A stretch of 47,133 nucleotides of DNA from Saccoglossus kowalevskii (lineage: Eukaryota > Hemichordata > Enteropneusta > Harrimaniidae): NCBI RefSeq assembly GCF_000003605.2, contig NW_003107602.1:103170-150302 (forward strand), read 5' to 3'. This document shows, piece after piece, positions 1-42,950 of the stretch (position 1 is the stretch's first letter; every line of letters starts with the position of its first letter). A program made the position numbers and the translations under genes. The notes below the pieces were generated by a model. It was not told the DNA's origin. It searched no databases and worked only from the letters and a program-made list of their open reading frames with translations.

Positions 1-1278
1 GACTTTCGTTGCATTTGACAATGATAAACTTACCGAAAAACCGTGTTATTCTCGGTCGCTAACGTCGGTATAATCCGCCATTTTATTTGAGTGTGTTTGC
101 CACCCGACTCCGCCCGGTAACGTCATCATGTGCGCTATAGAAGAAGGTCTGTGATTCGTTGACTAAAATCGTCGATAGTGGGCCTCGTTGAAATCTCGTT
201 ACATAGGCATCGGGTCAGATGTAGGTAGGGCGGAATTAAAAAAATCACAAAATCACAATCAAAGTAAAATAATAAAATAAAAAGGCATTATTAACAAAAG
301 TAATAAAAAATAAAATTAAAATAAGTTTATAGGCAAAATAATTAAAACCCGTACACTACATCAGATTTTAATCAGATTGTCAATTCGGGAACCCAAATTG
401 CATAAAATGCCTCAAGCACTCGAGCAAATACGTCATGCCATTACATTTTCATAATTTACATTCCCAATACAATAACTCGAATTAACTGCCCTTGTATTCG
501 CGATACACTGAAATCAATGTGCACAAAGACTATGATACGGGGGACTAGGAATAAATGCAATATACGGAATATGTGGTAATACAGCTGTGCATTCAAGATT
601 ATTATTATATTATATGTTTTCTCGCCATATTTAATTATTTGATTGTACATTAACCCCCAAAACAACCGATACTTCGTTCACTCATTTGAAAGTTTAAAAA
701 CAGTCAAATATCTTTGCTCACAATAAGTCGACCGATTTTGCCGTGTTTGAAGATTATCTCCCTGTATAACTTGTCCCAATTAAGCAAGATACTATGTTGA
801 GCAGATAATGTTACAGTTGTTCAATTGTTCGATAAAATTAAAGATGATTCTCTGAGAAAACTTCGACAATCTCAATGGTGAATTGCTTTGTATTCTGCAA
901 ATTTGATTTTGAGACAATTTTGTGACCATTATATAGATGCACATTTGCAGTGCTGGTCGAGTCATGAATGCTGAACTGTGACCCATGGCATACTAAGTGA
1001 GTATGTATTTTTTTCTGTATTTTTATTTTTGATCCCAATATGGCGTCATCCTATGCAGGAGCTGCCATTGATGCTGTCACAATCCTGTAATTACAGTCCA
1101 CAGCTCTGTTTTTTACCATGTGATTGCAGTAACCTATAAAAAACACACACAACGCAGTCACGTTTCAAAACTTTCCTCACATGTATATGAACTCAATTAG
1201 AATAAAATTGTAATCATCCTGCCTGAAGTCATCCTAAATATATAAAAAATAAAAACAATTGCTGCTTCAACAAAAGCT
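1..1278. other. Left flank, no gene recognised
   Basis: AT-rich non-coding sequence. Short open frames on both strands show no family resemblance, splice structure or composition that would support a gene. It ends at the TTAA that borders the large transposon. Confidence 0.5.
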
Positions 1279-1282
1279 TTAA

Positions 1283-1313
1283 AGGGCCATTAGCGGCATT
1301 TTCAAGCTTTTTT
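1283..1313 (+). repeat. Left terminal inverted repeat
   Basis: Begins AGGGCC directly after TTAA and continues through GCGGC and TTTTCAAGC to a T-run. It matches the reverse complement of 12233-12263 at 29 of 31 positions. Confidence 0.85.
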
Positions 1314-1495
1314 GTCATAATTTAAATCCATCTGCAATTTGCTGAAATGATATGTTGGTTGTGTTAAATGAGAAATACTGAACATAAAGACGAAAATAGT
1401 GCAAGTTCACCGTGCGCGAACGAAAAATGGTTTTCCGACGATTGCGACATCGATTTAAATGCCAACTTGCGGCGTACATTCCTAAGAGTTCTGAA

Positions 1496-1503
1496 TGACG
1501 TCA
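1496..1503. promoter_or_regulatory. CRE-like palindrome TGACGTCA upstream of the ballast gene
   Basis: A perfect 8-bp CREB/ATF consensus palindrome lies 24 bp before the ATG at 1528, within the left-end promoter region. A different ACGT-core palindrome occupies the equivalent place at the right end (12096-12107). Function is inferred from the motif only. Confidence 0.35.
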
Positions 1504-1527
1504 TCTCACTCTAAGAACTACCAAACA

Positions 1528-4500
1528 ATGGACGACTCAAATGAGTATTCCGCGGTAAGTATAAACCATCCTATTTCGCTGCGTTTTCCCAAGGAAAACC
1601 GGCACAACTTTTATTGTCGTTGAATTCCCAGACTTTTTCTCTTGCCATGTTGTTCTCACTCGACCTATTTCACTGTTTTTGGCGACCCCGATCACACTGT
1701 ACGCCGATCGTGTTTGCCTAGGATGATGCGTATACAACCCAGGGTATACAATTGCATTTCTCAGCGGTTTATCACGTAATAAATGTCGGAAATGTGTAGG
1801 CATTAGTGATTTTTATTAAAACCTTTGCAATGAAAGTCGACTAAATTTTTTTCGTTATTCAGCTCATTGGTCGCTGCCACTGTGTAGCTAGCGATGGGAA
1901 GGGGTGGAGACATGGAATTGTATATAGAAGTATAGAAATTGAGTACACTTTGTGACAACGTTTTGAACAGCGTAGGCTGAATTATACCTCACTGCTATCG
2001 TTATGATACGTTACTATATTACTCCATGGTTTAGTCATGGTTACTAGTAGAACCATGGTTTATTTATATTTAGTACATACATTTTATGGACAGAAAGTTT
2101 ACTTGATTATGTAATAAACCATGTACTTTACGTGAAGGTCATGGTCACTATTCTGCATGAATTACATTATCTACCAAATCTACTATTCAGGCCCCAAATC
2201 ATTCGTACATGCAACACAGATAAGGATAACCTCAACAAAATTAAACTGTAAATCCCCACACCTAACAATGCTATGCTGTAAAATACTTTATTTTAGCTGG
2301 AATTAATTTTCGCTAAAAATATATATATTCTGGGTGTTTATTTTCATTGATTCTTAATGAGTTGAATGTATAATATGGGGAAAAACATAATCGCTGTTTT
2401 TTAAGCTGTAAACTTATCCTAGCTTGAGTGATTGTCCGTTGTAAAAAGTGATATTTCTGACTTCTTGTTAAAAACCACAAGTGTGATTGCTTTGTTATCA
2501 TACACATATAGGTACTAAAATGTGGACCTCTCTCAGATTTGTCATTTCATTCAATTATCTAATTTTGATGAATATTTTTGGTGAAAAGTTTTATTTTCAG
2601 ATAGTTTAAACAATTACTACTGCATTTTCTACAGGCATCAAGCAGTTCTCTGGACACAGCAAATGGTGAAAGTGAGCCAGTTCCATATAGAAGGGGGGGA
2701 CGTAGCCGTGGAAGGGGAAGAGGTGGACGTGGTAGAGGGCAAGGCCAAACAAATGCTCATGATGCTTTGAGGCTTCTTCTTCAAAAAAAGAACAGAATAC
2801 GAGTGAGTATATTTTCGTAAACAGAAACATACATTTTATTTGGCAAATGCAATTTCAATGTGTACTCAAGCTGCCACAAAATATAAAAAATAACCCAACA
2901 AAGTGCAGACTGATTTTAATTTGAAATGCACTTTGCATTCATAGCCAAGATTCAAGGGGTATAGGCATTACTAAATGGTTTCTACAGTAAATGAAATCAT
3001 CTTCTTTGAATTGGAATGAAGTGCAAGGATCTTTCTGGATAAATGTTTTATAAATGTTCGCCTTCATAAAACCGAGTGTAGCAATACATAACTGTAAACA
3101 TTTAGGAGTGAACAAGCAATTAAAGAAATTCATAAAAAAACCTTGAATATAATTAAAGATGAAAATTACCTAACTTGTGTACAACATTAATTAAGCATAG
3201 TTAGCACAGGCTAATAGGTCAAACAAGCCTGGGGCAAGAAAACTGGCAGAAACACATGTACAAGCTATAACCGTACAAACAATAATATATGCTAACAACT
3301 TTTGTTTACTCTGCCATCTGCATTGTTTTTTTAAACATATACACATTTTAAAATAACCATAGTTAAAAAGGATTTGAATTCATTTTGTATGTTCCTATAG
3401 TTTGAGTGTTACATACAAGCATTGAGCAATAGTGGATATGCAGACATAGCAGATAAAATTTTAGCTCACAATGAGAAGGAAAACCTATTGACAGGTTATT
3501 GTCACACGCAACGTAATATTACCGTAATTGGTATAGTACAGGTGTGATGGTTCAAATACCAAAATGGCAACAGCAACAGAAAGACTTCCCTGGCGGCGAT
3601 GATAAAATGCGAACACGGAGCCAACAGATGAGGTTTCAACTGGTACTGGTATTATTATACTCTGCAAACATCAAGTACAATAACGCGGTAAAACTCCACT
3701 ACTCTAATAACTAAATACTTAAACTCCAATACAATTCAACGAGATCTCTGATCTGATCTCAGTGCTGAACACCTCCCCTATATACCCACTGTCTATAAAT
3801 AGACCATTACATCAGCATACATAACGAGTCTGGAACTTACTACAAATTTCTAGAATGTTCCATTACCTTCTATTGCCTCCTACAGTGTTCTATTACCTAT
3901 TCAACCAGTTTCTAAAAATTCCACGCAGACACCGTACTGTTCTAGAACATTCTCAGTCACACGGAAGTGGTAAACAAGTAGTATGCGACAGTTATTGATA
4001 AGCAGATCATTCCATTCTCTAAATAGGTGATAGAGGCCATTGGCAAATGAGAACAGTGGCTATAAAAATAATGGTTTTGCCTACAGTTTTGCAAGTCTTG
4101 CATATAATTAAAAAGTGTTTTTTTCACTTGTGTTTCAGACCATAATTGATGAAATGACATGGGGGGAAAAAATTAAAGATTTAAGTGGTGGAGGTACATC
4201 CAGGCTTATGTTTAATCTTTTGTTACCAGTTGTGCCACATCCAGGTGGATATCATTCGTCCCCAGACACTCAAAAACGCAGCTGGTGTGTCTGTAGCAAC
4301 TGGCGAGAGATGCCTACAGAGAGGGAAAATGTATGCTGCATGCGGCAGCCTCCACAGTGCACCACAACCTTGCCAGTGAGTATCACAGAGTTTCAAATAG
4401 GCATGATTTCTTTCTGTGTTATACATGCACAATGAGTCATGTTTTATCATTTTTCATAAACGTGTATTGTACATCAAAGGTGCTACATAACTCTACAAAG

Positions 4501-5025
4501 TAACAAATGAAATAGTGTTTCTGGTCACATTGAGAACAGGGTATCGTGTTACTTCATGTAGATCCTACTGCTGAGGAAACAATTTGCTTACTAACAATAA
4601 AAATATACAAGGTTCATATAAAAGGGTTTTCCAAAAATACTTTTGCATAAAATCGTGCTACAAGTGGTTCTTAAAGTTAAAACACAGCAAAAACTTTGGC
4701 CACTACAAACAGGAACCAAAAACAAGCGAACATTGTAAAATATATTTTAAGCTAAAGTACACTTCTGCTTTTAGGATTTTGAACTACTTGTCCTTGATGA
4801 AGCTGTACTTGCTTTGGCGCGGTACTATCACAGATATTTTAGTACTGGATGACTACGATGATATAAACAAGGCAAATTGCATGCAGCATATAGGCAGTAC
4901 ACATTATGGACACATGGTAGACTTGGTGTTGGTGACAGACTGGTAATACCGTTTAGAGCATCAGGGATAAATACCCGGATGCTAACATGCAATACACAGG
5001 GTTTCTGCCTGGTAGACTGGTGTAA
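1528..5025 (+). pseudogene. RG-rich / death-fold-like / P2X7 ballast-domain gene, frame-broken
   Basis: Five exons are proposed: 1528-1554, 2635-2802, 3401-3523, 4139-4375 and 4775-5025. All four junctions have GT-AG borders and join in phase 0. The start has a good context (ACAATGG). Exon 2 encodes an RG-rich stretch (RGGRSRGRGRGGRGRG) and leads into an amphipathic region with exon 3 (RFECYIQALSNSGYADIADK) that resembles the C-terminal helices of a CARD or death fold. Exon 4 holds the P2X7 intracellular zinc-module signature (WCVCSNW, REMPTERENVCC). Exon 5 holds its continuation (HAAYRQYTLWTHGRLG, IRDKYPDANMQYTGF). In P2X7 this module binds zinc through cysteines; here it is free of any channel. 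The usual third Cys of CxCxxC is Trp. Exon 5 has in-frame TGAs at 4850 and 4859 and changes frame near 4848, 4877 and 4960, so this copy is probably dead or carries assembly errors. An AATAAA lies at 5284. Confidence 0.68.
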
Positions 5026-6442
5026 TTATGTGCGTCTTGAATTTTTTTGTTCAACAAGAGTATCAGTTCGAGGTGGACTAAGTGGAGCAGGATGCAGTGA
5101 TATTCTTCTTGGATCTTGGGGTTCCAGCTCTTTATTTCGTTGCATTCCATGTGTATCTGTCAACCTCTTCACCACAAATGATTTCATTAACTGTGCGATG
5201 TGGAGATATGTCTTTTGTACCCTGATTGGTTTTACAGAGTATCTAAGTGTCTTTGTTGTAGCACCTATGAGATACCTAAAAATAATAAATGTGTAAACGT
5301 TATTTCTCTAAGCAGTTTATAATTCAACAGTGTTTACTTATATTATGAAATTATCACAAGAATACAGCAAAGTATAAACAAAGGCAGTACAGCAATGATA
5401 CCGACTGACACAGATGAGATTGATGCAACCTTGTACTGCCAGAGTGCATACTTTGTGGTATTCTCATGATAACCCTATGAAGAATGTTTGCATTGAGTGA
5501 TGGAACTACATTTCCATTGTGTGACACCACTTTTGCATCCAATGTAAATAAATGGAAAGTGTTTGAATGCAATGTGTCAATGTGATGTACTTTTAGTATT
5601 AAGATCTGTAAATCAGTGTAGTATATAGTGCATTTTATGATTTAGACAGTCAATTTTTGGGAATTTCGAAGAGTATGTGTGCTTAGTCAAACGTGACCCT
5701 GAAAATAGAAATGTCCCAAAAGTGAGCATGGATATCAAGTCAGACAAGTACAGTGTATTTTTCCCTCCAAAACACCTATATATATATATATATATGTCAT
5801 GTTATTATATAAAACATGATGAGATTAATACAGTATACGTCATATTATTCTCATTGACAATTATTGATCTTATTCTTTTCTGACCAGAATATTTTTTGTT
5901 GGCTAAAAATGTTATTGCTTAAAGACTTGCATTCTTAATATTGCCTGTTTTGCCGAAATGTAAAAACAAGTATTACAACATGGATGTAGATTGCCTTTTC
6001 TCCAGCTAAGGAATATTCTAAAATGACATAGCTAACACTAAAATAAAAAAATACCTCTGTTCACCAGTTTGTGTGCTTTGAAGTTTTCTATCTGCATGAA
6101 TGTTATGGTCTAGTGCTGCTAGAATTGTTCTTGCTCTGTAAACTGGTGGTGAATAGGCATATCTTTTGGCAGCATACATCAAAATATGTTGCTGACAGGT
6201 TTCCAGTTCTGCAGTACTTCTGTAAACAACATTTATTGATTTGGACAAGAATTTAATATTTCCATGTTAAATAGTTTACTGCAATAACATCCACCAATTT
6301 ATGTGTGCAAAAGCAACATAAATAGTATGCAATAGAATGGTGAGAAGGGAAAAAAATCATTAAAACGAAGCGTACAGTAAACGCTGAAACAACATGGATG
6401 ACACGGCATCTGATTTGACCTTTTCTTCAGAGTGGAATGGTT

Positions 6443-6568
6443 GGTGAAAGTGAGGTGGGTGGTGAAAGTGAGGTGGGTGGTGAGAATGAGATGGTAGGTG
6501 TGAGTGAGGTGGGTGGTGATAGTGGAATGGTTGGTGAATGCGAGGTGGGTGGTGATAGTCGGATTGTA
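6443..6568. repeat. 18-bp minisatellite, seven units
   Basis: Seven consecutive 18-bp units of the form GGTGAAAGTGAGGTGGGT run from 6443 to 6568 with substitutions only and no length change. The array is open on both strands. Reverse-strand frames give a His/Pro hexapeptide repeat (HFHHPP) inside a possible exon (6613-6420, acceptor TTTGTCAG, donor AAG|GTCAAA). The forward frame gives GESEVG repeats after a pyrimidine-rich acceptor (CTTTTCTTCAG) and ends at TAA 6590-6592. The reverse-strand reading is in the transposase orientation, but its frame does not join the next exon cleanly. Confidence 0.85.
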
Positions 6569-7538
6569 GGTCAGAAAAAGATTGCTCTGTAAGAGGATGA
6601 TGTAAAACATTTGCTGACAAAAAAATATGTTAATATTTATTTTATTATTACACATGTACTGCATTTATTTTGATTCGTCCCTGAAATCAAAATCGGTATT
6701 TCCACACCTCGTATGCAAGTGAGGTCTGAGAGCAAAAAAGTAGTCCCTTCAGGAGTTCCGTTTTATTCGGACAGTGACTCAGATTAGACATCTAATTATT
6801 TTATTTTCACACACAGTGACACTAGTTCTACACTGGCATGTGTTGCTAGGGCGTAACATTGTCTTGGAACATATTTTATTTATTACTTGTTTAATAAAAC
6901 ATGGTTCCATACAATCATGAATGTATCTTGTCTATTGTGGTCACATAACATGAAATGCTTTATTTGCACTGGCATTTTATTTTCCCTGTTTTACCTGAAG
7001 TCAATTGTTTGCAAAATAAATTCCAGTGAAAATGCAGCTTTCTCTATACGTTTCATAGAGTCTTAATACAACATAGTGAAATTTAGATCCACACTGTTTC
7101 TGTTTTAGTCTGTAAAATTTATTCAAACTAAAACAGCTAAATTGTCAGAGATGTTGCATGCAATACTGTATTTGCTCTATTAGTAGCGCATGCTCTTATG
7201 TAAATAACAGGTGTTTCTATGGTCAAAATACATCATATTTTAATAAATAAGTATACAATCAATGCAATTGTTGCATGGTCACACTCTGCACTTCCCTCAA
7301 TATAGGGTAGTACCCAGCTGTGTTCATCCACAACATGGTGCAGTGCATCACCCCACATTCCCTGTAATCACAATAAAGGACAAAAGTCATGATTGTACCG
7401 TATTTACCCGGGTAAGAGCCCATGCCCGATCATACGCCCAGGGTTTTTTTTTACAGTTGTGATTAAAAAAATAAGATTAAAAGTCGACTTCTTCAGTTTA
7501 GGTAATTTACATTAATTTTTCATGATTTTTTATCTGAA

Positions 7539-7814
7539 TCATAACAGTAAGTCTACAAAAATGTATATTAAATCAGGAACAGTAATTCTCTTTGAAATTT
7601 GCCAAGGTCCTGAAAATGGCCGGTCATTTGGTTGCTGCTTCCTTAGAGAGCCGCAAAGCAAGTGTCGCACTCGTTCGGCTTTAGCATCATCGGCGATGAA
7701 ACCAATGTTGCAATATTGTAGCAACCTGGGAGAGTGGTTGAAATCACGGTGTTTTGACTTAATAAAATATTTGGTAGCAGCTTGCGAATCCATAAAACTT
7801 GGTTCACATTGCAC
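7539..7814 (-). other. Unrecognised open frame inside a transposase intron
   Basis: A 91-codon reverse-strand frame between two assigned transposase exons. I recognise no domain and see no phase-compatible splice sites linking it to either neighbour. It is beside a GC-richer stretch near 7395 (TTTACCCGGGTAAGAGCCC) that looks like the end of some dispersed repeat. Treated as intronic. Confidence 0.2.
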
Positions 7815-8049
7815 AGCTAGAGACTAAGCAAGATAGAACAAGGTGAAATTGAAAATTATACTTACAAAAAACATATCGTAACTGGTAGCTTTCTGGCAAC
7901 AATACCAAAAATGGTTAACAATATGTGAACTCCACTTCAGTAAAGGTTTACATTCCTTGTTTAGGGCAGCCTAGGAAGAAATAATAATTTTCAAGCAGGG
8001 ATACTAGACTTATCTGTTTAAAAGTACAAAGGAATTTGAAGTTTATCCA

Positions 8050-8145
8050 AGCAGAAGAATTTGGAGCCAGACATTTATTAACAAGCAACATTGTCCTTGT
8101 GCTTCCCAAGACTGCAATACAGGGTCACACATACAAACTGATGTG
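8050..8145 (-). other. Weak transposase-like coding fragment
   Basis: On the reverse strand, after a possible acceptor (GACTCCAG), one frame reads VTLYCSLGKHKDNVAC. This recalls the Cys/His segment that precedes the catalytic core in Kolobok-type transposases. The frame then stops, and another frame continues for about 20 codons. It is probably a relic of a decayed exon. Confidence 0.25.
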
Positions 8146-8368
8146 AAACTGGAGTCAATAAAATGCATGTTAATATCCAAGAAATATATTTGGAATTTTA
8201 TGAACACAATTCTCAATACATTTTCAAAAAGCTGACATATGATATTTTATTATCACCATTCACTTTAGTTGAACAGTTGAAGCAAAATATACACTCACCT
8301 GAAATATATGAAACAACTACACAGAAAATATTGATATAATTTTCGAGAAAAAAAATCACTTTTCAGAT

Positions 8369-8468
8369 TCAGGATATTTCTGACACTTCCGGAGTTCTTG
8401 GTATAGGAACAGTTTTAGTGGGGCTTGGAGTGGACGATGAAGGGATAACAGACTCCTTAGAATGGTAT
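8369..8468 (-). other. Possible duplicated or alternative transposase exon 2
   Basis: After an AG at 8469-8470 this stretch reads, in the phase set by transposase exon 1, RYHSKESVIPSSSTPSPTK and so on to a TGA at 8369-8371. It strongly recalls the assigned exon at 8627-8748 (RYHASKTVPSTSAADPST). It could be a tandem exon duplication or an alternative terminal exon giving a short N-terminal-only protein. Read in the phase after exon 2 it would instead give an unrelated sequence that also stops. Confidence 0.4.
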
Positions 8469-9902
8469 CTCATCTGACCAAGTAAAAATTAAACAGTATT
8501 AAATCATGCAAAAATAGCATAACCCGTTACCACTGTACATACAAAAACATGAATAGAACACACATTTTCTGACATTGTCTAGAAGCGAATATAGTAAATA
8601 AGACATGATGATAGCAAGAATCATACCTTTAAGATTCAACAGCCGTTTTTCCATAAATTCTGTTGTTTTCTGTAGCTGCATAGTTTGAACACTGGCAGTA
8701 CTGGGATCTGCAGCTGATGTTGAGGGTACAGTCTTACTAGCATGATACCTGTAGCAAGAGAATAAACACATAATTAACAAAGTCAGAACTGTTTAGCCAT
8801 TAGTCAGTGTCTCGCATCTTTTGTAAGTGTCCCTTTACATTGGTCATATTTTTTATTATGTGGGAAATACAATTATGAGCACCCAGTAGTAAAACAAAAT
8901 ACATAGAAATGATTGATTCACCACAAAAAATTGTGAAATGCATATTCTGCAAAGTATCCCTTTTGTACATGTTTCTCTAAAAACATCTGCATCCAACTCA
9001 TAAATGCACAAATAACAAAATGAATACATTGAAGTACAATACTTTCTTAACCCTGGCTTGGATAACATTTTTGTTTTGTCTTGTAATTCAGGGTAGATAA
9101 TCAAATATACCTAAATTTTCCTTATAGTATCTATGATTATATCCCTTTGCTATAGATATGCTAATTTTGGTTTCAGTTAAACATGGAGCTCTATGAGTTG
9201 AACAACAGGAAGTGCTCTGTTTCTGCCAAATGATGACATCACATGTTAAAACAATATTTTATCAATACTGTCTATCTTTAAAATTAGTAGGATGCGTCTC
9301 ACAGTGCAAACATGACTATTTAGGCCAGCTTTATTGTTTATTGAAACACTTAAAATTCCTCGGGAGTTAAAATGGTTACACTAGAACACATATTTAAAAT
9401 TAAACATACAAATTCACAAAAGATTACTATCTAAAGCATGACAATGAGTTTGAAAAACATAAAAAAACTACAATTGTAAAAACTGGTAGAGAAAATAGTA
9501 TGATATTGTTTAATGACAAATTGTTTTCAAACAACTTATAGATGGAATAAAACTAGTTATACTACTTTTTGTCTCCACCCCATTGTTCTAACTATGTTTC
9601 TTACTTTCGTTAGCGGACAGTTTCAACCTAATTATGCATTCTTGTTAACGGTACTGTTTTATCAATAGATTAACAAGCCGGGACTGTTAATAATGAATGG
9701 GTTAATTTAAATATTCATGAGCACAACAGGAGTGAAAAGCTGATTAACATAACAGGTGGCCACTGAATGAAAACAAAGAACAAGGTGGAATTTTCATTTA
9801 ATTATTTAAATACGCAATGACGATTATACGATACATTTTAAAAACCTATTTCAAGTTTCATATTTCCTTTTACAAATTTCACGGACACTTAGGAAGAATC
9901 GG

Positions 9903-10710
9903 TTATGACAGTGATATTAGATTTGTCCTCGTCTGTTTCGCAGTTTTCGGTTTGAGTGGCTGCAATGCGTCTGACACCGCTTTCGTCTGCTCGTCGCTTC
10001 TAATTGCTAGACTGGAGTGACCCGTTCTTTCTGCTATTAGCTGCTCGTCGAAATTTTGCCGGAACAGCGTGGTTGCCTGTGTAACCTGTTTAATTAAAAT
10101 AAAATACTATGTATCAATATGAAAGTACAATAGCTTGTAACAGTCCACCTCATAGCAATGTAAAATATCAATATATTGTTATAGTACGTTCAATCGTTCA
10201 GCTTTATTAAAACACGCCAAAGCCGTTTGCATTAAATCTTTATCGCGTGAAATGAATCAGACATATCGTGCCAGTGAATATAATATTTAAATGGTATTCC
10301 ACCAAACAGTTTGCATGAACAAATGGAGTTAACGAGTAGTGATTATTTTCGACATAAAGTTGTGACTATTTCTCGTCAGCGGGGAAATCGAACACTGCAT
10401 TACTAAATTGCAAATTCTAATACGTACCTTTCCTGAATGCCCAATATGATAACATTTTATCCCAGCGATATCAGTCATCTGCTTTGCTCTTTCCACTCAT
10501 TCCATGTTTTGACGCCCCATTTTGTAGCGCTGCGAGTTGTCTGCGTGACTTGTATTCGGTGACTTGTTTGCTGTCAACTGGAGGCAAAAAACGGAATTCT
10601 TTCTGAATATCGCTCAGTTTAAAGTCCTCGGCGTCGTCCACATCAATTTGGGACAACCAGTTTTCGAAATCCCAGTCAATTTCCGGAGCAGCAAATTCTT
10701 GAGCGGACAT
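9903..10710 (-). pseudogene. Degenerate Crypton/KIAA1958-type tyrosine recombinase
   Basis: Two exons, nested in transposase intron 1 on the same strand. Exon 1 starts at ATG 10710 (good context) and runs 79 codons (acidic WDFENWLSQIDVDDAEDF) to a TGA at 10471. In another frame it continues KQMTDIAGIKCYHIGHSGK to a donor (AAAG|GTACGT, exon end 10428). Exon 2 (10085-9903) joins in phase 0: VTQATTLFRQNFDEQLIAER then TGHSS, ending at TAA. The HSGK...RTGHSS order is the C-terminal catalytic block of tyrosine recombinases. The central domain is missing, the two parts of exon 1 are out of frame, the usual HxxR arginine is Lys, and the segment that normally carries the nucleophilic Tyr reads AIRSDEQ. 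It cannot be an active recombinase as written. Cryptons have no terminal repeats, so insertion boundaries cannot be placed. Confidence 0.65.
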
Positions 10711-10799
10711 GATTCTGGCGGATCTCCGGAGTTCACTCAACAACGTGCTCCACTGTTCTCACAAATAAGCACCAAATTCACGTGATCGAATGTTGTATA

Positions 10800-10935
10800 T
10801 ACAATTCTACGTGGTCCAATCAGTGTTGGTTTTGGTAATACAATAAAGTCCACTGTAGATTCTATTGTTAAACAAAACAAACTCTGCTGAGTAAATGCCG
10901 ATTGGCTAGAGCTTTTCAACACATCTGTTATAGCC
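10800..10935 (-). promoter_or_regulatory. CCAAT-box region upstream of the recombinase ORF
   Basis: A reverse-strand CCAAT (in TAGCCAATCGG, near 10898-10905) and forward-strand CCAAT motifs near 10814 and 10930 lie 100-230 bp upstream of the ATG at 10710. This fits a promoter, but motif evidence is all there is. Confidence 0.25.
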
Positions 10936-11082
10936 AATGAGCACGGCTGATAATTGCGGTTGACTACACCTGGTTTAGAATTGCGATTTACACAATAGCG
11001 CTGTAAAAATCCGCCATGACCACAGGATTTAAAATAAGCCGTGCAAAACTCGTCAAATTCGCAGTATAACTTCGTTCTGCGC

Positions 11083-11121
11083 GCCTCGGACTTTTACCAG
11101 ACCGAGGCTCCAAAAGGAGCC
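11083..11121. other. Two overlapping, mutually exclusive hairpins
   Basis: GCCTCGG (11083-11089) pairs with CCGAGGC (11102-11108), and GGCTCC (11106-11111) pairs with GGAGCC (11116-11121) across AAAA. They share 11106-11108, so only one can form at a time. The stretch is GC-rich compared with its surroundings and lies upstream of the nested recombinase gene. No RNA family is recognised. Confidence 0.4.
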
Positions 11122-12095
11122 GCTATTTCCCGTTAATCTACTCGTAGGGGTAGTATAACTATCAGTAATACACTCATCCACACGTGTTAAGGCATTGAGC
11201 TAAAACATTTTTTTAGTTTCATGGCTAAAGTAACTAAAAAATGAACAATGTTATCTAAATAACTATTTGCTTATCAAGGCACAACAAAACAATAATTCTC
11301 AAAGATGGAGTTACGTCCGGGGTTACATCACGATCCTCCAAACGTTGCCAGGACCAATCACAAACAAGAATAGACAATGGATTTTCGGATTAACACCTCT
11401 GTTGTGCCCCATGCTAACCAACTTTCCCCCACGCCAACGAAAAAAAGTGTTGTTTCTACCTCCATGTTTCTACTGACTTCCTGTTGCGTTCACATATAAA
11501 ATAAAACTTGTTACAATGCGTCATACATAATTCCCAAATCCGTTGTGGCCATTTCTGATAAACTAAATTCAATATAATCACTTGAAAGTTTTTCATACCC
11601 AATTATTTGAATTCATGCACGGTTCCGTCACAATGAATGAATATCACCTTATATACAAACCACAACGCATGGCGCCGATGGATTTATTTTACGTTTCAAC
11701 ATATATTACAAGCTGCTCACACTTGTATATTAGTATTCTGGCCTAAAAAATAAACTATACATAAGCCAAACTTTCCCAAAAAATGCACAACACAAAAATA
11801 CATAACCCATGTAATGTACTACGCGATAACACATTGAACACAACTCACCTAGCAATTAAACACTTGGCTACATTTGCGTCTGAACCAAGAGAATTCTCCA
11901 ATTTTATGGCAATCCATTTGTCAACCTCTTGGCCAAGATAAATCTTCGTCGCACTATTGCTTGTCTGTCGTCGTTTTTTCGCAGATTCGCTCATACTTCG
12001 GCGACCGCGCATCCTGCACCCAGTCTGATCTGCCATTTTTTTCTGAGATGGTACTGCGCATGCTCTCAGATTACTCACCATTTTACGGCATTTAT

Positions 12096-12107
12096 CGGGA
12101 CGTCCCG
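12096..12107. promoter_or_regulatory. Perfect palindrome CGGGACGTCCCG upstream of the transposase
   Basis: A 12-bp perfect palindrome (14 bp counting the flanking T/A) with a GACGTC core lies 60 bp upstream of the transposase ATG and 156 bp from the right end of the element. It mirrors the TGACGTCA at the left end. Confidence 0.35.
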
Positions 12108-12232
12108 AAATAAATTTAACTTGATATTTGTGCGTTTGTAACACGTTGATAATTTTTGTGCTGCCATCACAGTTTATAGCTCTCTCGTCGCTATGATAGT
12201 TAAAAAAAAGCTAAATATAAGAAAAATACTGA

Positions 12233-12263
12233 AAAAAAGCTTGAAAACGCCGCTAGTGGCCCT
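12233..12263 (-). repeat. Right terminal inverted repeat
   Basis: The reverse complement begins AGGGCC and matches 1283-1313 at 29 of 31 positions. It is followed by TTAA (12264-12267). Confidence 0.85.
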
Positions 12264-12267
12264 TTAA

Positions 12268-12425
12268 GAGATTAGACAATATCGACGAAAATAGTTAAAT
12301 AATAAATGATGGTAGTTACACGCTTATTTATAATTAAAAGATACAACAGTCGTACTGCGTACAGTAAATACACAGCAACTGGGAATGCATGTAATGAGGG
12401 ACTGAATACAAACAAAGGTTAGACA
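12268..12425 (+). repeat. Dispersed repeat copy adjoining the transposon
   Basis: Starts GAGATTAGACAATATCGACG directly after the TTAA. It resembles 38118-38285 over about 150 bp with gaps (shared AATAGTTA, ATGATGGTAGTTA, TTAGACAGTT/GTAAGACAGTT). The transposon therefore probably landed inside a copy of this repeat. Confidence 0.45.
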
Positions 12426-12429
12426 GTTG

Positions 12430-13400
12430 TGATTTTTATTTGTGATTACAATTAACCAAGCAGAATATTATTTCTGTAATACTAGATATGCTTAACGTGT
12501 GTTCCAATATGGAGCCAGCCATATGGTGCAGAATTCTGATTAGCCATCCCGGTATATTGTATAAATACGAGTTCTGAAACATCAAATAAGAATGATTTAT
12601 GAACTGCTCTTTGACATGCTCAATCATTGTACCAAGCTTTAGTTTTATTGTTTTGCCACTAAAATCACTTCGTAATTCTCACCCCCTGCCCTTATGGTTA
12701 GTGGATAATATATTTATCTCCAGTGACCTGATCTGAATTTACCTTTGAATAACTTTTGGGTTAGCATGAGAAATATATATTTTCTCACTACGTGGTAGCA
12801 GCTGTTTCTGAGAGCACAACACTAACTGACGTGTTCACACTATTTGGTATTATGTGTTCACTTCTGATTCGTTATAGCTGATTGGGATGCTGTTTGCCAT
12901 CATGAATGACGAGATCAACATAAACAAATCGTTGTTCATTACTTGGTGCTCTTACAATGCATGTTAATGTCCCATGAATCCACATTTGTTTCCCTTCTGT
13001 ACTTGGCCACGAGTTTCTTCAGTTGTAATATGTTCGCTTTAGGTAATGTTTCACCAGTGAGAGTCCCGGGTAGTTTCAAGAATATTTCAAAGTTTTTTTT
13101 TAGCATTTGCTACTCTGTGTGTCAGTGAACAATTTGAGTGTCATTTTTATTTTCCCATTTTTAATGATTGAAAGAGTCTGCCACGAGGTCACTGGGTCAA
13201 ATATTAGCCAAAATACCAAATAGTATGCAATACGTTTACTACCTCGTGTGCGGGTTCTTAACCAATATAAAATTACACAATTTGTGTAACACAAATATAA
13301 TTTAGACTGATGGGCTCCAGTAGAGTTCAATGTGACTATATGCACATATAAGCAGCAATAATGCACACCGGCCAGTCTTGCACATACGACACTACACATG
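12430..13400. other. Non-genic stretch
   Basis: AT-rich sequence with only short unsupported frames. I see no gene, RNA or repeat boundary here. Confidence 0.5.
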
Positions 13401-16300: not shown

Positions 16301-16586
16301 ACACAGATATGCGAGTGATCCCAGATATCGGAGGTTATTCAGCAAAGACCTCAGATTTAACTGTAGATGTGACTGTAGTAATTTCAAACAACAAAATAAT
16401 GAGAGACAAAATGGCCATTAATGAGAGTTGTATGTATTCTTATCAATGACAAATATGGAAAAATGCTTAGCACATACTTCTTTTATTACACAAATGTTTA
16501 CAATAGTTCATAATTTTAATCAACAAAATGTAATATTTCCATCTCAATATTTCAGCTGATATTCCTGTCATTCTTGCTTTATAAAC
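16300..16586 (+). promoter_or_regulatory. Upstream region of SLCO gene A, shared with gene B
   Basis: Short blocks match the region before gene B (42480-42950) in the same order: GAGTGATC, ATTCAGCAA, TGACTGTAGT, ATAATGA-AGACAAA, and ATATTTCAG then TGATATT immediately before TATAAACATGGATA. The ATATTTCAG at 16547-16555 looks like an acceptor for a 5' UTR exon, so the true promoter may lie further upstream. Confidence 0.45.
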
Positions 16587-19500
16587 ATGGATAGGCAAAG
16601 TAAGGACAACGCCGATATTAAGAAAGTACTGCTCGACGACATGCCTGCCACCCTTGCACTGTCTAAGACTGACGAGTATGAATATTGTTGCGGAATAAGA
16701 CCATGGCGCCCTCGGTGTCTGCAAGTTTTCGCAAAGGCTCATTTTGCAGTTACCGGTCTTGTGATAGGAACACTATGCATGACTTTAAATTTTGCTGCAA
16801 TGTCATCTGCTTTAAACAATTGGGAGAAACGCTACAGTTTACCCTCCACTACAGTTAGTCTTGCATTCACTGTCATGGACGTAGCCAAGTTGTTTCCACT
16901 AATTCTAATAACCTACATAGGTGGTAGACCAGATACCCACAGACCCAGATGGATAGGAGGTGGTATGATAATCGGAGGGATAGGACTTCTTATTGTCAGC
17001 AGTCTGCAATTCATGTCTGAACCTTATCAGTACGGCGTCTTCAACGGAAAAAAGTCGATGAAACTATGCAGTGCCCGGGAAGAATATTCTTTAAATGACA
17101 CCATTGGATGCAATGAAGAGACTATGCATGGGGTTCAGCTTAAATTGTTACTTCTGATACTCACTGGAATAATCATGTTTGGCATTGGTCTGTCTCCACT
17201 CTTCACTCTTGGGATCACATATATTGATGACATTGTTCCCAAGAATAAGTCCCCGTTCTATATAGGTAAAGTAAATAAAATATAATACAAATAAAAATGT
17301 TATCAAAATTTTAGCATGTATGATTTGTTTTGAAGTGCATTATGACGTATTTTGTTTTGTTTTGGAAATGAATTGTCTACATCACTACTGTTTTGCTGAG
17401 TAAAGGCTACCGTGACATTACCCCCAAACATATGAAAATATTACGAAGTCAACAATACTTTCCATGTTTGCTTTCCTACTAGGCAAAATTTTGTGCAAAT
17501 GTTCAGGGGCTGTACGAATTATTTGAACAAATAAAATCACCTTTTAGGGGATTTATTATGTTGCGAGTTGGAAACACAGATAATCGGGGTACTGCGATTC
17601 AGGTTACGCGATGAATGAAAAATGAATGCACAAGCCCTATCAATTCAGGAATTCTCATCTTAACAGAAATATCACACTTTTTATGTGGTGTACACCACAT
17701 CTAATTCACCGTTCTCTGGCCTGTAGTACATATGTCTTCTCCTTACAAAACTTCTGTTTCAAATAATTTGGTTGGCAGATATAATGAACCTGTCATTAAA
17801 TAAAATAATAATGCTACAAAAGTCAGATTCCAACAACGGCATTTGATTAAGACTCAGATGAAAATATGGCGGGTGTCAAACGTGGAGCAGTACGTGATAA
17901 CTCTTTTTGGAAACAACCTTACATTTCATGGTTGTCAAATTATTATTCTCTTACTCATTTGCCTTTATTGTGTAACGTAGATAGTTTTTCATTTCGGTTG
18001 TGTAACTTGTAAATTTCGCTATACAACTCACATTCAATGTCCTATGATTTAATATTTTATTTCCTAAAGAGTGTGATTTTTGAAAAGGTGCATATTGAAC
18101 ATTTCATTGTCATAGCATGATGCATATTGCTTTTGTATTTGAAAATAAATACATGGGCTGGACAAGAAATAACTAATTATTGATGATTTTTTTTTCAATT
18201 CAGGTTTAATGTTTTCAATGCATGCACTGGGACCACTCATAGCTTTCCCGATATCATCTGCCTATAATAACATGTACGTAGATTTTTATCGCGTCAATAC
18301 ATCGATGAGCGAAATCAGTCGACACGATCCACGCTGGGTCGGTGCTTGGTGGCTCCCTTTTGTTATCAATGGTCCATTGTGCATTATTGTTGGAATATAT
18401 ATTATGCTTCTTCCGAAAAAGATTCACGCTAAGGTTGGAACTATAGGTAGCCCAAATCAAGAAGTCGTTGTAAATAACACTATATCACTTATTTTGAACA
18501 AGACGCTGAAAGGTATGTCTTGCTTGGAATTTTACTAAAGCACAGTATGGGGAAAATGATCACGAATAAGGTCACATGGTAGACTTTAATTTAATAGTTT
18601 TTTTAATACTAAGTAAACGCATTTGTGTATTTTAAAAGGGAAATCAATTATATAATATGATAAGTTTCTATGCATGGTGGTATTTGATACGACTTACATT
18701 CTTCGGGTATGAAATAATTAGAAAACAGACCTCTAGGCAATCATACATGAGAAACATGCTTTAAGGATTACAAATAGATGTGGCTTACATGTGGGCAATT
18801 TAAAATTACAGCCACTTCACTTTGATTTGATAGATCTTCTTTCCATTTCAGATCTGCCACAGGCGCTGAAACGACTCGTTTATAATAAGACTTACATGGC
18901 AGGGATGATGGCACGTATAGTCGATACGGCCGTGGTAGCGGCATTCGCGCCTTTTAGTGTTAAATACATACATGACCAATTCAGAGTTCCTATGGCAATT
19001 GCTGGATTCCTTGTTCGTAAGTTATTTAGCTTCAATGGAGTTGGTGGGTCGATGCATTGGTTGTTTTACTTCATTACCTGCTTCTGACTTGAGCGGTTTG
19101 TGATTATTTACTTGAATTAGTCATATTAGATTGAAAAAAGTAATTTATTTTTTATACGCATAAATATGCATTAAGCATAGTATGTGGCGTTTCATTTTCA
19201 AGAAACAATCCATAATTTGTAGTAATAGATGTGGTAGGTTGAGCCAGTGTAGTATATTACACATTACAACTGAGGTGGTTTACCTCACTAACAAATTCAT
19301 GTTCATTACTACTTCGATATATTCACAGCTTTTGCATTTGTTATACCAAGCGGACTTGGGATACTCATTGGAGGTATACTCATGCGGAAATACAAACCAT
19401 CATTAGTATCTACAGCTAGAAATGTTCTCCTTGTAGGTGTTCTGGTTGTACCACTTCCTATCATAATGATCTTTATTGGTTGTGATAATTATAGATTTGC

Positions 19501-33696: not shown

Positions 33697-34281
33697 CTAA
33701 TTGTCATCGCTATTTTTATCAGATATCTGAACTACATTTGTGCATCCAGATCCTCGACATTGACCACAAACTGCAGAACATTCAAGGTTGTGCTTTCTGC
33801 AGGTACATCTGAGACTGCGACAGTCTATGGAGCAGTTGCAACTCACTATCCTCAAGGGAGATTCAGGTGCTGCCTCCTTGTCAGTCATTACAGGAATGAT
33901 GATCAGTTGTGGATCGCGTCCTGGGATTTGCTTCCTCGCGAGAAACCTGATTCGTGTCTTTATCACAACATGATTTCCAATAAAGGCGACACATCTGACC
34001 GAGAAGGACAGGGCCCCTAGTTCAGTCCGACGCCTACCTGAGGCGAGGGTGAGTAGGAAGACTGTTTTCCACATCAAAAGTTTGAGTGGTGCTAATTGGA
34101 GAGACCCAAATGGCAGTCTGCTTCTCTCGTTCAGGCATCTGATTAAACAATAAACAGTCTCGTAATGGTAGGACAACTGGCTATTCTCATCCCCAGAGAA
34201 TCCCAATAGTGGGTGACAAGGCTGACCTATAGCCAACAATCGTTCAAACGATGGACGCAAATTCAGCTGTCTGGCCAACAA
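33697..34281 (-). pseudogene. DIRS tyrosine recombinase N-half joined to a Cys-rich CXC tail
   Basis: A 194-codon open frame. The middle part reads PLKLLMWKTVFLLTLASGRR then RTELGALS, the conserved block carrying the first catalytic Arg of DIRS recombinases, then FLARKQIPGRDPQLIIIPVM. After ESPLR the family continues with the catalytic His/Arg and Tyr segments. Here it changes abruptly to SCNCSIDCRSLRCTCRK and LECSAVCGQCRGSGCTN, a tesmin/TSO1 (CXC)-like cysteine module, then stops. It is either a chimeric recombinase-CXC protein or a fusion with a second decayed element. As written the catalytic C-terminus is absent. Confidence 0.68.
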
Positions 34282-35205
34282 AGGGAAGCCATGGATCTTC
34301 CTTCCACTACACCAATTAGTGTACGGACGTCATTTCGAGGCGTAGGCTGTGTTGGTGGGATCCCTGTTCGACCTGGCCAGGACATTGGCAGCCTACTCAG
34401 AGCCTCAATGCGTGTAAGTGGTACACCGCTGGGCTCAAAGGCAAAGCACCGTCAGGTTGGGACAGCAGATCTGGAAGTCCGGAAGCACCCCTGGTGTTTC
34501 GACTAAAATTTCCAACAGTAGTGGAAACCAGACCTTGCTTTGCCCATTGGGCACCACCCGAGTCAAATTACAGATGCGCTCGTGTCAAAGTGACCCTGGT
34601 CCATGCTCCTGGAGTTGGCATGAGTGTCGTGTACGTCGGGATCTTGGCATTCCGAGGTGTGTTGAATAGCAATCTCCCTGGCAAAGTTTTATTTACGAAT
34701 ATATCTCTGCCACCACGCGATCTTATGATTGGTCGATGTGTCACAGTGGTACTACTTTCAAAAACGCTCACCAAAAACATTACCATGCAGGTGTTCGATT
34801 TTCGAACTCGCCGAATGTGTATGCGTTGTTTGTATATACTGGCTGTTTTCAAAGCAAGAAGCTTTTTTTTCTTTCTGTAGCACAAACGGTGCGACAATAG
34901 GACGATTTAGCCGTCAATACCCCCTAAGTGCAATCGTTTCTTTATATTTTTGTTGTCTGGAAATCGACAGGATGGTCAGTTTGATGAACCGAGTAACACC
35001 TTAGCAACCGTTATTCCGGCGCATGAAATTATTTTCTTCTGTAAATTATAACTATTTCACCCTTGACAGTGCATTTACGAAAAAATCGTTATCAGCCATC
35101 TATAAAATATTTTAAAACTTGTTTTCCAGTAGGAATAAATCAACACTAGATCCCCCTAATAAAAAAATACGCAAATAACACGCATAGTAAAAGTCTTGTG
35201 GTGTT

Positions 35206-35652
35206 TCACCACAAAATGGCGGTGTGTGGTGGCAGAGATACTTTCGGTGATCTAACCGCAAGGAACTCTGGTAAGGAGAATGGGTGAATAGGTCTAACAT
35301 TGGACTGTCCCACTGCTAAAACAGTCTGTAGGTTACCCATTGGGGTATCCACCACTGCACGTTCTGGAGACAGAGCCGCCACAAGTGGGCATCCACTTGA
35401 CTGTTTCTCGCTCCTGGAAGGTGGTGTGCGGCTAGCTCCACATTGTATTCCAGATACCAAAGGGGAATTTGCTCTGCTAGGACTGACAACAATTGGGTCC
35501 CCCTCCTTGCATCTATAGGAGACAACCCCTGTGTTGTCCATGTGAATCAAGACTCTGGTCTCGAACTGGGTAGAAAGTGAAGTAGTGCTAAGCGCACTTC
35601 TTTCAGTTTGAGCTAGTTGATATGGCAGTTCTAAATCTAATGCAGGGGCCAT
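35206..35652 (-). pseudogene. DIRS RNase H remnant
   Basis: One frame gives RVLIHMDNTGVVSY (from the 35652 frame) and an overlapping frame gives LEYNVELAAHHLPGARNSQ then VDAH. Together these are the metal-binding Asp region and the downstream HIPG.N..AD motif of the DIRS RNase H domain. They are in different frames, so at least one frameshift separates them. Confidence 0.65.
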
Positions 35653-36036
35653 ATTTTACATTGGGCTTGTTCGTCCAATAGGTGCGCCCCCCAACATGTC
35701 ATAGCCGTGGCGAGTGGGTCCAAAGGGACCCCCTGCCTGAGGTTGGCAATTGCTGACCACCAGGGCAAGGCATTCCTCGGTCCTCCCTTGGTCCAAGAGT
35801 GTTACTCATCTCTCCAGTTCCCGTCAGAGAGGCTGGTGTTGCAACAAAAATGCGCCGTAATGGGCGGCTGCGTAACGCAACCTGAGGAACTACCCTGCTG
35901 ACATCATTCCGATGATTCGCATTAGAGACACTAGGTCGAACAACCCTGCCAGGAACACCAACTGTTGTGTTGGCTGAGGGTGGGACTTGCTCGATTTACT
36001 AGGAAGCACAACTAGTCTAGAAAATCTGGTGTTTGA

Positions 36037-36806
36037 CTAATCACCCCTTGTTGGGTTGTGTAGCAACCAGCCATCTATGTACACGTTGATGTGTACCGAT
36101 GTGATGTGTAAGGGCGCAGCAGTAGCACCACCTGTTTCCACACTCGGGTGAATATGTATGGAGCCATGCAAAACCTTAAGGGGAGCACCACACGCTCGAC
36201 TACTTGGCACAACTGGGCGAATCGAGGGAGTCACTGACACACTGGGTGTATCGGTATGTGCAGGTAAGTATTGCTCAAATCTAGCGAGGCTAATCAGTAG
36301 AAACAGAGCACAGAGAATAATATAGTGCTCAGCGTTTCCAGAAAGCTCATACTGATTTAGTATGCTTAAGTCCAGAACTGGGTACAGCCACCTGTAGTCT
36401 CAGTTGTAGTCTTTGGAACCACCAATACTTGCGAGTAGAAGCCCAGATTCAACGCCGGGTCCCCTATCATGTGTATAGCGCCCTTTGTAAGCAAACTATC
36501 TACCTCCTGTTGGATTGCTCCTGCTTTGCGCGGGTTCTCTGGTAGTGCTCCGAATGGGGGCTGGTACTGGGGGGGTTGCAGCGGGATCTTGTAACTGTGT
36601 ATCGCCACCTGGAGAGTCCAGGGATCGGTTACACATGCTTCCGAACCGGAATATAGCCACGTAATCAGTGCAACAGCGATGTGTGTTCGGTGGTTCCACA
36701 TCGGGGTGATCTCTCCTCCGCCTAGGTGAGACCCTGCAAGGCCTGTAGAAGTCGATAGGTTCAAACTCTGTCTCCCGCCAAACATATGCCCATCCCCTTG
36801 TCGCAA
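36037..36806 (-). pseudogene. DIRS reverse transcriptase remnant
   Basis: The first segment (frame ending 36366) shows EVDSLLTKGAIHMIGD and GFYSQVLVVPK. A second frame continues RWLYPVLDLSILNQY. A third segment (36240-36037) ends VHINVYIDGWLLHNP. These are reverse-transcriptase motifs up to the active-site box, but YxDD is YIDG and the segments lie in different frames with the middle missing. It cannot be catalytic. Confidence 0.72.
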
Positions 36807-37191
36807 GCAAAAGCATCAAACCTGCTTCCCCTGCGAGCTGGGTAGGCAACCCCCGAGGAAGAAGGGCGACCATCACCTGGGCCCAAATTCCTGGGGGCGC
36901 ATTGCCACTCTTCCCTCCCCAAAAGAGCCGGGGCACTTGCCTCCTGGCTACTTTTGGCCAGTGGGTGCCGACTTTGGTCGTTATGTTTTCTCAGCTTGAG
37001 GTCCTTATCGCTTGCCCTTGGCAGAAACCAAACTTGCTCGTGGGTCTTACCATTACCAACTGGTCAGTGGGATCCTGAAGCACCAAGACTGCTCCAAGAC
37101 TGGCCAAAATCACATTCCGCTGTACAGTGGCAGCCCCTTCCACGAGAGCCAGATGCAGTGTGGTGTCCCACCAATGGCTGTGTCTGCTGGT

Positions 37192-37918: not shown

Positions 37919-38117
37919 CGTATACAACGCGTGTAAAATACATTGTTTATTTACATTAAATTCGAACACGTGCTGCGCGACGACCATCGCGCTTTGAACT
38001 AATATTCATTAATAAATTGATAATAATTATATCTGATTTTCATTATATATGATTAACATATAATATTCGTAATGATATGACGAATCCTAAAAAAAAAACA
38101 TTTCATGTTACACAAAG

Positions 38118-38285
38118 AGATTCAACAGATTAGTTGGCAATATCGATAAAAATAGTTAGGTGGTATATGATGGTAGTTATAGAAGCATTCATACGTTAAA
38201 AATAACAGTAGTATTGCAAACAGACAATACAATACAACAGAAAAACTGAATGAAAACACAGGTAAGACAGTTACAATTATTTTCT
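38118..38285 (+). repeat. Second copy of the dispersed repeat found at 12268
   Basis: Begins GAGATTCAACAGATTAG and shares AATATCGA, AAAATAGTTA, ATGATGGTAGTTA and a terminal GTAAGACAGTT with 12268-12425, in the same orientation. Consensus boundaries are unknown. Confidence 0.45.
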
Positions 38286-42479: not shown

Positions 42480-42950
42480 AATTTGTGAGTGATCTCGGGG
42501 TCATTCAGCAAGTGGTCCCAGATACCCTACCCGACAAGTGACTGTAGTGGAACATTGAATGATTATTTTAAATTCCAAATAATGACAGACAAATGTTTAG
42601 ACAAATTGGCCAGTGTTGAGTGAGTGAAGTCTACATACATTATTCGCAAAATACCGTGAACTGTATATGTATATAAGCCCAATGTTTTGACATAGTTCAG
42701 TACATTATACAAGCAGATAATCTAACTGTTACAATGATGTAATAAGACACTTTAATAGCATCAAATTACACGACAGACTACTTGCAGCATTGCATCCTCT
42801 AATCAATTATATCCTGATCAAACACGAATCATACAAACATAATTCTGTCAGTAAGCATTTGTATTTGCTGATGTTAAATTTGACCAGAACAAATGATTGT
42901 TTACATCTTAATATTTCAGGTGATATTTCTGTCAACATTGATATATAAAC
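42480..42950 (+). promoter_or_regulatory. Upstream region of SLCO gene B
   Basis: Shares ordered short blocks with the region before gene A, ending in ATATTTCAG, TGATATT and ATAAACATGGATA. The acceptor-like ATATTTCAG (42911-42919) predicts a 5' UTR exon starting at 42920. Confidence 0.45.

Follow-up and report, generated by a model that had tools for sequence, protein, structure and literature searches.

The element and its ends

We analysed a 47,133-bp stretch of the Saccoglossus kowalevskii genome (contig NW_003107602.1, positions 103,170 to 150,302; the whole stretch is called the window below). It contains, at positions 1283-12263, a TTAA transposon of 10,981 bp which is very probably a degenerate cut-and-paste DNA transposon of the Kolobok superfamily (Kol0 kind). 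It carries two genes that converge, one for a DDD/E transposase and one for KolX, a protein predicted to end in the zinc-binding ballast known from the P2X7 receptor. An earlier note, made from the sequence alone, had proposed such a Kolobok-like transposon in which a ballast protein is encoded beside the transposase. Another long copy elsewhere in the genome (C4078), with the same ends and both genes, bears this out.

The inverted 31-mers agree at 29 of 31 positions, the best among 196,575 random 31-mer pairs of the window being 20/31, and with the flanking TTAA the complementarity is 94% over 35 nt (TTAA-AGGGCC...GGCCCT-TTAA, 1279-1313 / 12233-12267). A scan for TTAA joined to 14-nt inverted ends (at most 3 mismatches, spacing of at least 2.5 kb) recovered the element's own ends as the sole pair in window 1-13000, and none at all in two stretches (10.0 and 9.1 kb) that served as controls. 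The 31-bp ends with TTAA outside, as described in the earlier note, thus hold. So does the arrangement of the genes, which had been placed some 230-245 bp inside the ends and convergent: the KolX ATG at 1528 is 245 bp inside the left end and the transposase ATG at 12036 is 227 bp inside the right end. Between both genes there is an array of 18-bp tandem repeats (6412-6589), also found in C4078.

Insertion as a single unit was examined through the flanks. Once joined, these match four paralogous places across the junction with 71-74% identity: one on C1735, two on C216 (at 61.8 and 63.5 kb) and one in the window itself (~38089-38231). Plain TTAA stands at the junction in both C216 places, which are closely alike and not independent; C1735 and the window place differ at that spot, and gaps of a few bases occur near the junction in the paralogous matches. 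These four junction-spanning matches show that the element inserted as a single unit into a repeated host sequence. The ancestral site, which the earlier note had singled out as informative, is represented here by unoccupied paralogous sites.

Genes of the window copy

The features of the window copy are collected in Table 1. GT/AG signals, read by eye, are found at the KolX exon borders and at several transposase borders. As far as sequence comparison tells, KolX is built of an RG-rich N-terminal part and a P2X7-ballast C-terminal part. The ballast matches P2X7 chains in PDB (E = 1.3e-7, chain residues 474-570), and exon 4 alone matches the Pfam family P2RX7_C (PF20478) with E = 6e-5, exactly at the cut-off; the two exon-5 pieces scanned with Pfam on their own gave no match. 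A ballast-bearing KolX is likewise the second gene in C4078. Five of the seven conserved ballast cysteines were counted in the window; the third is lost in the window and kept in C4078, and the last of the seven falls in a frameshifted stretch. All seven were counted by eye in two relatives, C1243 and C4670. The RG-rich part announced in the earlier note is real (6 RG in 54 residues) and recurs in a distant KolX, that of C3427. The death fold also announced there is not supported: its only sign in KolX is a CARD_2 match below the cut-off (E = 0.16, 12.5 bits against 28.2 in the Pfam scan), and shorter KolX stretches gave no death-fold family by Pfam and no relevant PDB chain. A search of a plasmid collection with window 4100-5300 gave no match.

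The transposase was pieced together from stretches that are collinear with C4078, single pieces of which match the transposase of C1243; the Pfam scan assigned no family to any scanned transposase piece of the window. The catalytic core is preserved in C4078 (GDGRMDSP...VTDAHMQI), where it is 36% identical to the open transposase of C1243 (595 amino acids), and the motif HSHDIWH is found in C4078 and C1942. Taken together, these motifs agree with the DDD/E signature of Kolobok with C/DxxH between the second D and the last E. In the window the corresponding ~1.4 kb has been lost, and with it DxxH and the first and second catalytic D.

The window copy is dead, because its transposase core is lost and its last KolX exon carries two in-frame stops and then, later, a frameshift. 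These defects and two nested insertions come in addition to what the earlier note had seen. Differences between the window and C4078, counted by codon position, are 8, 1, 1 in KolX exon 2, 2, 1, 2 in exon 3 and 3, 5, 5 in exon 4. No third-position excess was found in these three exons, as expected of two decaying copies, and selection on KolX is therefore not claimed.

Table 1. Features of the transposon copy at window positions 1279-12267
Feature	Position	Strand	Evidence
Left TTAA target-site duplication	1279..1282	.	plain TTAA at junction of two paralogous unoccupied sites
Left 31-bp terminal inverted repeat, 5'-AGGGCC	1283..1313	+	left-end matches at 6 further places
KolX exon 1, start codon and GT donor	1528..1554	+	sequence reading
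KolX exon 2, RG-rich	2635..2802	+	counterparts in C4078, C1942, C3427, C7; short piece in C2444
KolX exon 3, stretch once taken for a death fold	3401..3494	+	counterpart in C4078
Nested 489-bp insertion, in the intron after KolX exon 3	3502..3990	.	flanked by GTTATTG (3495-3501 / 3991-3997); not in C4078
KolX exon 4, first half of ballast (zinc-cysteine domain)	4139..4375	+	PF20478
KolX exon 5, second half of ballast, broken; 3' end approximate	4775..5010	+	P2X7 PDB chains
Transposase C-terminal piece, presumed last catalytic E; 3' end approximate	6219-6045	-	91% to C4078, 40% to C1243 transposase
Transposase exon; 3' end approximate	7361-7258	-	comparison with other copies
Transposase exon	7970-7866	-	47% identical to C1243 transposase
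Deletion point	8303..8306	.	copy comparison: ~1.4 kb present here in C4078, partly in C1942
Probable transposase exon 3; 3' end approximate	8380..8473	-	similar stretch in C4078
Transposase exon 2	8748-8627	-	comparison with other copies
Nested 1.6-kb element, inverted ends AGTTATACTAC/GTAGTATAACT	9555..11160	.	not in C4078, C1942, C2444
Transposase exon 1, start codon	12036-11849	-	counterparts in C4078, C2444, C3552, C4773, C7
Right 31-bp terminal inverted repeat	12233..12263	-	pairs with left repeat
Right TTAA target-site duplication	12264..12267	.	direct sequence

Copies elsewhere in the genome

The ends were searched in the window's own genome (572 Mb in 4,830 contigs), where at least ten distinct places carry AGGGCC-type ends, the window included. 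Both ends are present at four of the ten, namely the window, C4078, C2444 and C7 (the right end of C7 being a remnant); three places have a left end only (C2658, C1942, C96) and three a right end only (C2124, C4773, C3552). For these one-ended copies the other end was sought within up to ~16 kb, the distance covered being 3.6 kb at C4773 and 1.4 kb at C3552. TTAA adjoins 6 of the 7 left ends and 4 of the 7 right ends, one of these four having a shortened repeat.

Among the two-ended copies, the window and C4078 are long and hold both genes, and C2444 (3.3 kb) and C7 (1.4 kb), both shortened by deletion, retain remains of each gene. C4078, the further copy that the earlier note had called for, is ~11.4 kb long and collinear with the window. 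An assembly gap covers the greater part of its KolX exon 5, and exon 4 of the same gene is damaged too. Remains of both genes were found at five of the ten places (the four two-ended copies and C1942), remains of the transposase alone at three (C2124, C4773, C3552) and neither gene at two (C2658, C96). Identity to the window is 80-98% in the aligned pieces, except at C7, where it is 70-89%.

Ballast genes and Kolobok-type transposases

To the window and C4078, seen by protein search, six more ballast loci were added with the Pfam model, by which 15 ballast candidates were scored and neither the window nor C4078 passed. Five of these eight loci (window, C4078, C2039, C4670 and C1243) have a Kolobok-type transposase at a distance of at most ~2 kb, which speaks for the earlier note, where the surroundings of stand-alone ballast genes had been proposed as a check. 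The two genes are convergent at C2039 and C4670, as in the window, and run in the same direction at C1243. Conversely, among at least 16 transposase loci four adjoin a ballast locus (C1243, C2039, C4670, C4078), and the other 12 listed adjoin none of the eight. With at least 16 loci listed over 572 Mb, the chance of finding a transposase within 10 kb is ~0.0006 per ballast locus.

Two of the relatives deserve description. C1243 (615-7208, - strand) carries an open 595-residue Kolobok-type transposase (PF20700, Mutator-like, 5e-13), with a THAP exon upstream (PF05485, 5e-17) and, downstream, a ballast in two joined exons (PF20478, 1e-12). Judging by this layout, THAP, transposase and ballast possibly form one spliced gene. 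Being open, this relative would be a usable subject for testing the role of KolX. C3427 (4095-6830) contains a diverged KolX gene with an RG-rich exon and a ballast. An end-like 18-mer, TTAAAGGCCCAATAGCTG, which includes TTAA and has 3 mismatches, stands in the same orientation 1.28 kb before its exon 2, to be compared with 1.36 kb between the window left end and KolX exon 2; a scan of 189,062 positions outside the family gave no other match of this kind.

Classification

The AGGGCC family shares with Kol0 (Kolobok-1_XT type), as described in the main text of PMC9587614, the TTAA duplication, RR/YY termini, a transposase with DDD/E and DxxH (the latter seen in C4078), and KolX as second gene. 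In the window copy the 4-bp TTAA is present at both ends and the termini read 5'-AG...CT-3'. A difference is that the window copy is dead. With the P2X7 ballast (PF20478) and Nanor it has in common the zinc-cysteine pattern CxCxxC...CC...C and the AYRxF...IP motif; unlike these, the window KolX lacks the P2X channel part and is encoded within a transposon. KolobokP elements also combine a transposase with another gene, encoded in most families on the other strand (PMC9587614), whereas their second gene is a His-Me nuclease and their ends are long direct repeats; a repeat search of the window found no long direct repeats of this sort.

The earlier note had taken the pairing to be undescribed, which is not the case. 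Kojima and Bao (2022, PMC9587614) had reported that Kol0 Kolobok families encode a DDD/E transposase and KolX, and had identified KolX as the P2X7 ballast: it is similar to residues 476-595 of human P2X7, which form the cytoplasmic ballast and hold seven cysteines and two zinc ions. According to the same paper, a P2X4-like gene fused with KolX to give P2X7, and Nanor is also derived from KolX. Free-standing ballast proteins across animals were described by Rump et al. (2020, PMC7016195), the main text of which does not contain "transpos"; the relevant passages of PMC6004289 mention neither KolX nor an accessory second protein. As the pairing is published, the AGGGCC family of S. kowalevskii is a further example of an association known since 2022, one that accounts for the origin of the P2X7 zinc-binding tail. 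The main text of PMC9587614 does not describe the RG-rich part or the convergent layout in those words. What the present analysis contributes is a case for which unoccupied sites and another long copy are available, together with the observation that in one genome most ballast loci seen adjoin Kolobok-type transposases.

Several points weigh against this reading. Neither protein is encoded intact by the window copy, and its placement in the Kol0 clade is provisional. Among the matches listed, no transposase lies near the ballast loci of C3427 (185 kb), C3577 and C3977 (~3.2 kb looked at for each of the latter two). The stretches examined at C4670, C2039 and C1243 showed no inverted ends with TTAA. 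At C3427 the right end was not found, a single weak A+T-rich TTAA pair being all that was obtained there (inverted-repeat searches of the relatives' stretches gave nothing better), and its end-like sequence agrees with the window over only 18 of the first 31 bases.

Role of KolX and alternative explanations

From what is known of the superfamily, an intact transposase would act on the AGGGCC ends, excise the element and insert it at TTAA. KolX may help the transposase to bind the ends, to assemble into a complex or to be retained in the nucleus. We would give even chances to KolX being an accessory subunit of the transposase that binds nucleic acid and is folded around zinc. Harbinger elements, which have a Myb-like helper protein, offer a comparison for such a role. 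A more ambitious version, which we regard as rather unlikely, is that the two-part build, an RG-rich arm binding nucleic acid and a zinc ballast, has been kept across diverged Koloboks as a true subunit of transposition, the ballast and transposase of C1243 being perhaps one spliced protein. If this were true, the ballast would originally have served to handle DNA or RNA of the transposon and would have been reused later in P2X7.

KolX could instead be a counter-defence protein, whose RG-rich and zinc-ballast parts would disturb silencing of the transposon by small RNAs or chromatin; we hold this to be improbable, though worth consideration. The recurrence of the RG-rich N-terminal part in two diverged KolX families (those of the window and C3427) speaks for it, and silencing proteins with Tudor domains are frequent partners of RG motifs. 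In P2X7, on the other hand, the ballast binds zinc and contains a GDP-binding region (PMC7016195), properties that point to no link with silencing.

The remaining alternatives question the element itself. A host gene caught by chance between transposon ends would be consistent with the three of eight ballast loci that have no transposase among the matches listed nearby, one of which has a possible transposon end. This explanation is nevertheless very improbable: both long copies have the ballast gene at the same position, three other ballast loci adjoin Kolobok-type transposases in spite of the low chance estimated above, and Kol0 has been described with KolX as its second gene (PMC9587614). 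We reject it on the evidence of C4078 and of that publication. An element of piggyBac type, which would also duplicate TTAA, is still harder to defend and is rejected on termini and motif, since the termini follow the RR/YY rule of Kolobok (PMC9587614) and the transposase has DxxH and resembles a THAP-linked Mutator-like transposase; KolX-like proteins of piggyBac are moreover reported in the same paper to be without most of the conserved cysteines. That the two ends stem from unrelated insertions with host DNA between them finds no support in our data and can be dismissed, being contradicted by the four paralogous stretches that span the joined flanks with gaps of only a few bases and by the content of C4078, collinear between the same ends.

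Nested insertions and neighbouring sequences

A stretch resembling part of the 489-bp insertion (window 3744-3990) is also found within the C2444 copy. The 1.6-kb nested element has a relative at C2446 (~229000-230400). It contains debris which, judged by a motif, looks like a tyrosine-recombinase (Crypton-like) gene; Cryptons are not known to have inverted ends. The repeated host sequence seen at window 38089-38231 and at the two C216 sites belongs to a region with two similar transporter-like open reading frames, located by eye in the window at ~16560-17285 and 42942-43721. On the - strand, window 33697-36990 holds open reading frames that by eye resemble a retroelement, of DIRS type or another, whose end is recombinase-like.

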